Of a DNA stretch of 64,000 nt, positions 47,580 through 49,617 are shown in pieces. Numbering within the stretch: the first letter of the stretch is position 1; each line of letters begins with the position of its first letter. Under the pieces are notes generated by a model. The model saw nothing but the letters and a program-made list of their open reading frames with translations. It did no database searches and was not told where the DNA came from. The DNA is from Clostridium sp. HBUAS56010 (GTDB lineage: Bacteria; Bacillota; Clostridia; Lachnospirales; Lachnospiraceae): NCBI RefSeq assembly GCF_007115105.1, contig NZ_SULJ01000003.1, forward strand, positions 124,001 to 188,000, read 5' to 3'. Position numbers and translations under genes: made by a program.

Positions 47580-48575
47580 CTACTTGTCTGCTTCCAGAAG
47601 ATTGTCCGTAATCAGATCCACCAGTGCACTGGAAGACATAATATCGGTGTACCATGTGATGGATGTATCCAGACTTCCAAGCCGTCCTTTTTGAATGGCA
47701 GGAATGGACTTCCAGACAGGACTTGACTGTAAGGAATTGCTGACTTCTCCCAGAGATATCATATAATCTCCGCAGAAAGGTTCCAGCACTTCCAGGGAAA
47801 TATTCCCCCAATACTGGTCTTTGTCAATGATTTCAGTCTGAATCTTTTGAGGAACCTTTAATCCCATCTCATGATAAGCTACAACACCTGCAGCATGTTT
47901 TGCTCCCGCTATATAATTTCCTTCATCAGAGAACTGTCCGATGGTAACCGTTGCTTCTGATAGCCCAGCATCTTTAATTGATTCTTTTGCTTTTGATAGT
48001 TTATCGTTATAATTATTTAAAACCGTCTCTGCCTCTTCCTGCTTATTTAATACATCTCCAATGAACCTTACCCTGTCGTGGGTAGTCATCTCTCCGTAAG
48101 GAACGTAGATGGTCGGTGCAACCTTTGACAGGTCTTCATAGGAATTCTTTGAAAATGACAGGATAATCAGATCCGGTTCCAGTGCCATAATTTCTTCGGC
48201 TTCCATATCCCAGCTATTGATGTTGAGAGATTCTGTGATTTTATCTGCAAATGCAGTCCTCGAACCTCCCTCTTCTGCTTTCGCCACTGCCAGAGGTGTT
48301 ACCCCAAGAGCAACGACGTCGCCAATTACATAATCTACAACTACCCGTTTCGGGTTAGCAGGCACTTCTACGTCTCCCATGACAGTCTGAATCGTTCTGG
48401 TTCCTTCTTCCAACGGCTGTTCTCCTTTTGTTTCTTCTGTCTGATTGGCAACCGCCGTTGTTGGTGAACCAGTGGTGCTTCCAGTATTAACCGGCGCCCC
48501 ACTGCAGGCAGTCATCATTAACATCAGAGAGGAAGCGGCTGCAATCACCGCTTTGCTTCTTATTTTCTTAAACAT
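47580..48575 (-). CDS. nested lipoprotein: siderophore-binding protein from internal start
   Basis: From the internal ATG at 48575 (residue 324 of the fusion) the protein starts FKKIRSKAVIAAASSLMLMM then TACSGAP, a signal peptide with lipobox MTAC. AAAAAGGAG lies eight bases ahead, a textbook ribosome binding site. A Thr-rich linker and two lobes follow (TRTIQTVMGDVEVPANPKRV, LEPDLIILSFSKNSYED, YWGNISLEVLEPF). A 331-residue surface lipoprotein could therefore be made from the same mRNA as the AraC fusion. Whether both products exist, or whether a stop codon was lost between two separate genes, cannot be settled here. Confidence 0.75.
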   Translation of the reverse strand: MFKKIRSKAVIAAASSLMLMMTACSGAPVNTGSTTGSPTTAVANQTEETKGEQPLEEGTRTIQTVMGDVEVPANPKRVVVDYVIGDVVALGVTPLAVAKAEEGGSRTAFADKITESLNINSWDMEAEEIMALEPDLIILSFSKNSYEDLSKVAPTIYVPYGEMTTHDRVRFIGDVLNKQEEAETVLNNYNDKLSKAKESIKDAGLSEATVTIGQFSDEGNYIAGAKHAAGVVAYHEMGLKVPQKIQTEIIDKDQYWGNISLEVLEPFCGDYMISLGEVSNSLQSSPVWKSIPAIQKGRLGSLDTSITWYTDIMSSSALVDLITDNLLEADK

Positions 48576-49544
48576 TTCGATTGCTCCTTTTTCTTTGAGT
48601 TGGTCAAGACTAACCAGACCACCTTCATTATAAGAAAAAGAAGACTTCTTTTGAAGCACTCCATCTCTCATACCGGTATACAAATTCTCTCTATATGCAC
48701 TGGGGGACATCCCTGTTTTTTTCTTAACCAGACGGTATAATCCCTGTTCATCCAGCAAACCGCAGCGTATTCCGATTTCCCGAAGAGAGGCGCTGGTCGT
48801 CTCAAGAAGAATCAGCGCAGCGTCAAGCCTTCTCTGAATCAGATATTCCTGGGGACTGCTTCCTGTCTTCTGCTTAAAGCTCCTGTGAAAATGGCTATAG
48901 CTGATTCCAAGCATCTGGCAAAGTTCCTGTATGGAAATGTCTTCCCCGTAATGTTCCTCCAGATACCGGACTGCCACTAAAATAGTATCCGGTTTCAAAA
49001 CCTGAACATTCCCCTTCTCAAGTTCGCTGTATACTTCACTGACAAATTGATAAAATACCCCTTTTCCATAAAATAAATCCAGGGCAGTCATACCATTAAA
49101 ACGTTCATAAAGACGTTTTAACTGATCTGCAAAAAAAAGCGGATTGGAAGGAGAGAATCCATACTGCTGTTGAAAAGGGTTTCTCTTTTCCATCAGCCTG
49201 CAAAATTCAAGTCTGTTAAATACGGGTTCTCTGGCTTTATAAAAAACCAGATAATATTCCAGCCAGTGACTTAAGGGATAAATGGACAGGCTGGCACCTT
49301 TCCCTCCATGAAACAGACCAAACCGTTCAGAATGAAAACGGGTATCGCCAAGAGATACGGCTGCCATGCCAGAGGTAAAGACAAATGCACTGGCTGGCAG
49401 AAAATAACTTCTGACTGCCTCTTCCTGGGTGATTAAATTGTGCCGAATATCCAAAAGTGAAATCACTGCCAGATTCCAGATCTGAAGTGAAGCCTGGATC
49501 TCCTTTTGTGTAACATGCAATTGTGCCTGATCCTGTCTGTCCAT
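47580..49544 (-). CDS. AraC regulator fused in frame to an iron-chelate binding protein
   Basis: The 654-residue frame has an N-terminal helical sensor region (about 1-190), an AraC HTH domain (about 193-293; ISIQELCQMLGISYSHFHRS, SLREIGIRCGLLDEQGLYRL, MSPSAYREN), a 30-residue linker, and a FeuA/FhuD-type periplasmic binding domain. Bacillus Btr is a comparable AraC-binding-protein fusion that senses a siderophore inside the cell. The join here differs: it contains a full lipoprotein signal peptide with its own ribosome binding site (see nested gene). No stop or frameshift is visible. It lies downstream of a GTTAG-N6-CTAAC operator. No permease or ATPase genes are adjacent. Confidence 0.85.
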   Translation of the reverse strand: MDRQDQAQLHVTQKEIQASLQIWNLAVISLLDIRHNLITQEEAVRSYFLPASAFVFTSGMAAVSLGDTRFHSERFGLFHGGKGASLSIYPLSHWLEYYLVFYKAREPVFNRLEFCRLMEKRNPFQQQYGFSPSNPLFFADQLKRLYERFNGMTALDLFYGKGVFYQFVSEVYSELEKGNVQVLKPDTILVAVRYLEEHYGEDISIQELCQMLGISYSHFHRSFKQKTGSSPQEYLIQRRLDAALILLETTSASLREIGIRCGLLDEQGLYRLVKKKTGMSPSAYRENLYTGMRDGVLQKKSSFSYNEGGLVSLDQLKEKGAIEMFKKIRSKAVIAAASSLMLMMTACSGAPVNTGSTTGSPTTAVANQTEETKGEQPLEEGTRTIQTVMGDVEVPANPKRVVVDYVIGDVVALGVTPLAVAKAEEGGSRTAFADKITESLNINSWDMEAEEIMALEPDLIILSFSKNSYEDLSKVAPTIYVPYGEMTTHDRVRFIGDVLNKQEEAETVLNNYNDKLSKAKESIKDAGLSEATVTIGQFSDEGNYIAGAKHAAGVVAYHEMGLKVPQKIQTEIIDKDQYWGNISLEVLEPFCGDYMISLGEVSNSLQSSPVWKSIPAIQKGRLGSLDTSITWYTDIMSSSALVDLITDNLLEADK

Positions 49545-49569: not shown

Positions 49570-49617
49570 GTTAGTTTTAGCTAACCAAAGTATAACATAG
49601 GATCTTATGGCTGTACA
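49570..49617 (-). promoter_or_regulatory. promoter and GTTAG-N6-CTAAC operator of the AraC fusion
   Basis: GTTAGTTTTAGCTAAC (49570-49585) starts three bases downstream of the -10 TATACT (49589-49594). A weak -35 (TGTACA, 49612-49617) is at 17 bases. The layout matches the other two copies of the palindrome: operator just downstream of the -10. Confidence 0.75.

Follow-up and report, generated by a model that had tools for sequence, protein, structure and literature searches.

The closest described system is Btr (YbbB) of Bacillus subtilis, which passages of two papers present as an AraC-FeuA-like one-component regulator tied to iron-siderophore uptake and list under fur (PMC9609785, PMC3896406). 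For B. pumilus, such passages list ybbB and feuA as two genes (PMC9609785 / PMC3896406), whereas the gene analyzed here holds both in one frame. It lies in a 64,000-nucleotide stretch of Clostridium sp. HBUAS56010 (contig NZ_SULJ01000003.1, positions 124,001 to 188,000 of the forward strand), referred to below as the window. Positions 47580-49544 on the minus strand of the window form a single open frame of 654 codons, which runs from an AraC-type regulator through a lipoprotein signal peptide into a siderophore-type substrate-binding protein (SBP). Comparison with relatives makes it probable, in our judgement, that this is a two-product gene, with a nested, iron-regulated lipoprotein gene lying inside a regulator-receptor fusion that is itself under selection.

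Btr and the window protein both have the AraC helix-turn-helix (HTH) in the middle and a siderophore-type SBP domain at the C-terminus. The SBP domain of Btr is not known to carry an export signal; the window gene differs in having a lipoprotein signal peptide, a Shine-Dalgarno (SD) sequence and a start codon between its domains. The best NCBIfam match of the long protein is Btr (NF049932), reached via the HTH only and far below the cut-off (71.9 vs 900 bits), and 25/25 members of set A2 match this model at E <= 1e-5. FhuD/FhuD2-type lipoproteins share with the nested product the PF01497 domain, the fold, the lipobox and, in 7 of the 29 loci from named genomes described below, FecCD genes directly after it, but here the frame of a regulator encodes the SBP in its 3' part. 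One report describes bacterial in-frame N-terminal proteoform pairs that arise via internal translation starts and whose products may differ in location (PMC11005335). The window gene likewise has two in-frame starts in one open reading frame (ORF), the second with conserved initiation signals; it differs in two ways: a promoter and an operator for the inner product appear to lie within the ORF, and its long product is a regulator of several domains. ToxR/CadC-like regulators are membrane-spanning, one-component proteins with an OmpR-type DNA-binding domain, one hydrophobic helix and an outer sensor. This layout is possible for the long product of the window, except that its helix is a lipoprotein signal peptide with a cleavage site and its DNA-binding domain is of the AraC type. 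Our literature searches, confined to an open-licence library that misses most subscription papers, turned up no description of a regulator's frame in which a receptor gene is nested together with an operator for it.

The AF2 model of the long protein (25-row alignment, mean pLDDT 79.6, pTM 0.45) displays a beta-rich N-terminal domain, an HTH part up to residue 291, a low-confidence linker, a lone helix at residues 319-347, a second low-confidence stretch and a well-predicted SBP domain at residues 382-653. By sequence profile and by fold, this last domain is nearest to FhuD, FhuD2, FtsB and YfiY, all four of them siderophore binding proteins, with 4b8y as one fold match (TM 0.86 by target length, 24% identity). 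The label siderophore-binding is backed at the level of family and fold only. The join between the two halves reads AAAGAAAAAGGAGCAATCGAAATG, and the signal peptide starting at Met324 is MFKKIRSKAVIAAASSLMLMMTAC. Among the 36 ATGs of the open frame, Met324 ranks first for its SD duplex. An SD and a start codon immediately before a lipoprotein signal peptide are a feature of ferric-siderophore SBP lipoproteins, and this feature is present in the nested ORF. An earlier note, made from the letters of the window, had described one frame joining an AraC regulator to a siderophore-type SBP with a ribosome binding site, start codon and lipoprotein signal at the join; the frame, the Pfam matches and the SD ranking confirm that description. 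The coordinates of all features are collected in Table 1.

Table 1. Features of the regulator-receptor gene and its upstream region, with positions in the window
Feature	Position	Strand	Basis
Long ORF, 654 aa: AraC-type regulator, lipoprotein signal peptide and siderophore-type SBP	47580..49544	-	Frame translation, Pfam; join open in 44/44 members, the window's own included
N-terminal sensor-like domain, residues 1-188, beta-rich, cupin-like by eye	48981..49544	-	AF2 model, strands 27-105
AraC-type HTH DNA-binding domain, residues 195-286	48687..48962	-	PF00165 and PF12833 (HTH_AraC/HTH_18), Pfam
Siderophore-type substrate-binding domain, Pfam part (Peripla_BP_2, residues 409-625; modelled domain, residues 382-653)	47670..48320	-	PF01497; FhuD/FhuD2-type by sequence and fold
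Nested lipoprotein ORF, 331 aa, start ATG = Met324	47580..48575	-	Frame translation, SD, conservation; related stand-alone gene L014 (G007) with the same SD and start
Internal SD AAAGGAG, 8 bases from the ATG	48584..48590	-	Sequence, SD ranking, conservation
Lipoprotein signal peptide, lipobox LMMTA-C, Cys347	48504..48575	-	Sequence; canonical lipobox in 43/44 members; AF2 helix 319-347
Candidate internal -35, TTCAAA, 17 bp from the -10; weak	48650..48655	-	Promoter-like matches
Candidate internal -10 box TATAAT	48627..48632	-	Codons TAT AAT in 21/21 non-redundant clostridial members
Internal operator-like site GTTAGTCTTGACCAAC, within the coding sequence; departs from the consensus only at the base where T would give an in-frame TAA	48599..48614	-	Comparison with GTTAG-N6-CTAAC
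External operator-like site GTTAGCTAAAACTAAC, a perfect palindrome in front of the long ORF	49570..49585	-	Palindrome scan
Candidate external promoter TGTACA-17-TATACT, TG ahead of the second hexamer; just before the external palindrome	49589..49617	-	Promoter-like match

Relatives were collected in several ways. When named genomes were scanned with patterns taken from the N-terminal half of the AraC part, 31 loci were obtained, and 29 remained after removal of L082, which is cut by a contig end, and L085, a Pseudomonas HTH match. All 29 are a single open frame across the join, and the search did not select for fusion because its patterns lay in the AraC N-terminal half. These loci come from [Clostridium] aerotolerans, Lacrimispora xylanisolvens, Scatolibacter, Konateibacter, Tissierella, other clostridia and Paenibacillus/Cohnella. 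Within the genus, 6 of 25 genomes hold fused ORFs, 13 in all and each free of an inner stop, and SBP-only matches at E <= 1e-50 number 21; one further genus of the family contributes two fused members. Scans of 391 genomes at class level and 397 at family level scored few candidates per genome and give lower bounds: the fusion is found in at least 2 (the genome that contains the window and G017; E <= 1e-80), with two others matching the SBP part only, and in at least 3 (E <= 1e-60), respectively. The resulting family set comprises 44 members with both halves, the window's own included, of which 29 are non-redundant at 90% identity (21 clostridial, 8 paenibacillar). Since some named loci are probably of the same species as other genomes sampled, most counts below refer to the non-redundant members.

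Some loci of this collection hold additional copies. In L063 and L064, the fused gene is followed, at a distance of 93 or 55 bases, by a second SBP-similar ORF of 657 or 683 codons, and these are probable tandem copies; two large ORFs also occur in L055 and L066. The AraC N-terminal domain was not found by itself in the 25 genomes of the genus, bar one piece of 30 residues (L096, G003:C1:101227-101316) right after the fused gene of G003, which is probably the remnant of a lost copy.

This sample bears directly on whether the fusion is an accident. The earlier note had offered a lost stop codon as its alternative, that is, two ordinary neighboring genes whose stop was lost or mis-assembled in this one genome. 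Stand-alone SBP relatives with their own start, SD and operator do exist, as such an origin would have it. However, the genome contains a second fused gene (L002), 49% identical to that of the window, the other 42 members are fused alike, and the linker measures 36 codons in 26 of the 29 non-redundant members. Relatives with a clear stop between two genes were looked for, and there is none among the 44. We reject the lost stop and leave this explanation practically no probability.

The linker also speaks to selection on the fused protein. Its reading frame contains no stop in the 29 non-redundant members or in all 44, while the two other frames carry stops in 26/29 and 29/29 of the former and in 37/44 and 44/44 of the latter. 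We take this as evidence that the fusion protein itself is under selection.

The signals for an internal start are kept as well. The internal ATG is present in 44/44 members (shifted one codon later in L056), and AGGAG or AGGGG lies within its reach in 43/44, the exception being L073 with CGGGGAG. The lipobox is canonical, by a pattern of our own, in 43/44; the exception, L055 (STC), still has the cysteine, which is thus found in all 44. Internal start, SD and lipobox persist in relatives as distant as 23% identity to the window protein. In every non-redundant member, the SD of the internal ATG is within the best six of the 24-55 ATGs per frame, and in 13 of the 29 it ranks first. The residues encoded over the SD vary among the 21 clostridial members (K/Q/E, then G, then A/V/D/E), while the bases read AAGGAG in 20 and AAGGGG in one; the third residue is always one with a GNN codon because the GGAG motif demands it. 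Such conservation strongly supports the proposal that one frame gives both a regulator fusion and a separate surface receptor.

Synonymous positions around the join are likewise constrained. In a first set (13 ORFs, 7 representatives used), codons 311-323 of the gene contain 102/109 identical codons for identical residues where 35.6 are expected, with a z-score of 13.6 vs a median of 1.15 over 609 windows of codons; these z-scores ignore shared ancestry, and it is fairer to ask how the stretch ranks among all other windows of the same genes. By that measure, residues 311-322, the 12 codons before the internal ATG, rank 1/655 for synonymous identity in the 21 non-redundant clostridial members, with 979/1195 codon pairs alike and 411 expected.

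Additional elements at the join, the TATAAT hexamer and a palindrome, go beyond what the earlier note had listed. The hexamer stands 57 bases ahead of the aligned start column in 19/21 clostridial members and 54 and 60 bases ahead in the other two. The palindrome lies 39 bases ahead of this column (36 in L017), a register in which a perfect copy would read ..NNC TAA C.. and introduce an in-frame stop. In 18/21 non-redundant clostridial members, the single mismatch among the 10 fixed bases is exactly the stop-making T. The site of L054 is moved by one base; there CTAAC makes no stop and stays intact, with two mismatches in the opposite arm. Upstream of the ORF, 17/21 members have a perfect external copy and 3 have one that matches at 9/10; the remaining member, L072, has a broken N-terminus, and its promoter region is probably outside the stretch searched. 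In the 372,507 bases of the 21 clostridial named loci, a redundant set, GTTAG-N6-C(A/C/G)AAC occurs 27 times on both strands, 20 of them at joins. It had been suggested that the same mRNA could serve for both products. The long mRNA may indeed do so, but a short mRNA is likely as well because the join carries promoter-like and operator-like elements of its own.

Across the 3.95-Mb genome that contains the window (G000), GTTAG-N6-CTAAC has 22 sites, compared with 5 for a reversed control. Coordinates were compared by hand to assign sites to genes. Of the 9 loci whose FecCD match is strong (at least 147 bits; two weaker loci are not counted), 6 have a site ahead of them, as do both fused genes. 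Some of the others are found ahead of FTR1-like and superoxide dismutase genes (read by eye) and next to a Fur-like gene, and three DtxR-like matches have a site within ~0.3-0.55 kb upstream; the genome has 7 DtxR-like matches, 6 over the cut-off. On the strength of these positions, GTTAG-N6-CTAAC is probably a metal operator, most likely for iron, to which an iron repressor would bind. A strict match to the DtxR/IdeR operator was considered and rejected. The IdeR box consensus, TTAGGTTAGSCTAACCTAA, has arms one base apart (PMC10317159), and the palindrome has the same half-site, GTTAG/CTAAC, but arms six bases apart. The genome also contains a multi-gene version of the system, L005/L006 (G000:C65:152914-157012), with separate AraC and SBP genes followed by FecCD genes and GTTAG-N6-CTAAC in front. 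A 25-mer, CGTGTGAATATTCTATACATCAGAC, is common to L037, L038 and L101 (contigs C1 and C2 of G000) and lies directly beside the palindrome in L037 and L038; it is possibly a repeated regulatory or mobile element.

In the 8 Paenibacillaceae members, the GTTAG palindrome is lacking at the join (best 5-7 of 10). Two of them have a Fur box there instead, when scored against the consensus TGATAATNATTATCA: L073 with TGATAATGATTATCA matches at 14/14 and L081 at 13/14. A Fur box of 12/14 or better is found at the front of the long ORF in 5/8, and matches of this strength form 14 clusters, as counted from the listed matches, in all 137,317 bases of Paenibacillaceae loci. The constant core across groups, in this comparison, is the SD, the ATG and the signal peptide, while the inner operator is present in most Clostridia and a minority of Paenibacillaceae.

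A single product would account for part of this picture. The fused protein could be a membrane-spanning one-component regulator with its hydrophobic helix as anchor, the AraC part inside and the SBP outside, the internal start being unused. The modelled layout, with an AraC part, a low-confidence linker, the helix at 319-347, a further low-confidence stretch and the SBP, agrees with this, and so does a frame open in 44/44. Left unexplained are the base-level constraint before Met324, the AAGGAG kept despite residue changes, and the palindrome or Fur box inside the frame; the lipobox cysteine of all members is also left over, and the lipobox suggests cleavage. We regard a single membrane-spanning product as unlikely, and a membrane location of the long product can be combined with two products. 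Lipoprotein processing could also act on the lipobox within the long chain, which is intact there in 43/44. The long chain might then be made, inserted and cut, with the fused form mainly a precursor of regulator and lipoprotein. Such a precursor would make an internal SD or operator needless, and signal peptidase II would have to cut behind an N-region of 323 residues; we give it very little credence.

The genes that follow the fused frame point to a function for the nested product. In 7 of the 29 named loci (L059, L068, L073, L074, L075, L078, L079), two FecCD permease genes come next on the same strand, one directly behind the fused gene and the second after it. A similarity search of the open frames of at least 120 codons found no other SBP gene between the fused gene and the FecCD pair in these seven. 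An uptake operon cannot do without a binding protein that is exported, so the receptor of the FecCD permeases there should be the nested lipoprotein. This bears on whether only the long protein matters, as a cytosolic Btr-like fusion whose signal peptide is a relic and whose join is the remnant of an old lipoprotein gene. The domain order, AraC HTH then SBP, is that of Btr. For a relic, however, decay would be expected, yet the lipobox has stayed canonical in nearly all members, the join is the most constrained stretch synonymously in Clostridia, and in the seven operons the search found no other SBP gene between the fused gene and the permeases. We consider a relic very improbable.

The two halves of the gene differ in their histories. 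The window gene itself is flanked by genes for an aldehyde dehydrogenase, a malate/lactate dehydrogenase and an ACT-domain protein (Pfam). The copy L014 of G007 also lies beside an aldehyde dehydrogenase frame (identified by peptide); the AraC half is absent there, and the same SD and start are kept. This stand-alone SBP groups with the fused L010 (support 0.997). In the midpoint-rooted SBP tree, stand-alone SBPs branch among fused ones at several places, and the halves have therefore been gained or lost repeatedly. The trees of the two halves conflict: L002 and L063 are 77% identical in the AraC half and 33% in the SBP half, and L058 and L069 are 42% and 65% identical. This suggests an exchange of receptor modules in L002/L063/L072, L058/L069 and L055/L068. 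We do not claim the internal promoter as crossover point; the change in identity falls inside the signal peptide and the early SBP (~residues 340-405), and there is no sharp shift at the promoter.

Several observations weigh against a nested, iron-regulated gene. The window region holds 7 promoter-like matches, with 4.0 +/- 2.0 expected; the internal match alone is no proof, and the -35 hexamers at the joins are weak, mostly 4 of 6 bases. L002, the closer paralogue in the same genome, keeps only 6/10 operator bases at its join, and L054 and L056 keep 8. The stand-alone SBP genes vary at the operator T as well (four CGAAC, five CTTAC and four CTAAC among those listed), and avoidance of a stop is possibly not the sole cause of the internal mismatch. 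Six of the 8 Paenibacillaceae joins are without a Fur box of 12/14 or better and have only a -10-like hexamer, TATACT or TATTCT, at the same column. No synonymous-constraint peak is found at the Paenibacillaceae join, which ranks 101-130 of 632 in a set of 8 sequences with close pairs among them. L072 and L078, two of the 29 named loci, are broken, with the AraC N-terminus out of the open frame. Finally, 22/29 named loci have no direct FecCD pair, the window's own copy has no adjacent permease genes, and for some of the 22 the FecCD genes are elsewhere in the locus (L055, which also has a separate SBP gene, L062 and L065).

Taken with these reservations, the two-product gene would work as follows. 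From the external promoter, under the iron-type operator, the 654-aa AraC regulator with its siderophore-binding domain would be expressed. The inner promoter, the second operator copy, the SD and the start, and probably also internal initiation on the long mRNA, would give a 331-aa exported lipoprotein, the putative SBP of a FecCD-type iron-siderophore ABC transporter. At low iron, repression would be lifted at both operators. The lipoprotein would then capture the ferric siderophore, and the fused copy would sense the same ligand, upon which the AraC domain, by analogy with Btr, may turn on uptake genes. Since the codons are shared, both products would have the identical ligand specificity that the earlier note had attributed to them. 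Its placement of the long product inside the cell is less settled; the signal peptide becomes an internal hydrophobic helix in the model, so the long product could span the membrane. It may be cytosolic, membrane-spanning via the signal peptide, or cut at the lipobox. More tentatively, and with doubt prevailing, the same receptor might be found in two places, as a free lipoprotein for uptake and, fused through its own signal peptide, as the outward-facing sensor in an AraC regulator that spans the membrane. The ratio of the two would be set by two copies of one iron operator, the inner copy lying within the coding sequence, one base off a stop. If this is true, one and the same protein would serve the cell both to capture the siderophore and to gauge it on the outside.

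If both products are made, the gene would amount to a compact sensor: receptor and regulator share codons, so their ligand specificities could not diverge. Protein frame, promoter, operator and ribosome site overlap at the join and appear to be under selection together, and two kinds of operator occur near the same joint, the GTTAG palindrome in Clostridia and a Fur box in 2/8 Paenibacillaceae. Gene callers are expected to give the long frame only, and the receptor of such operons could be overlooked.

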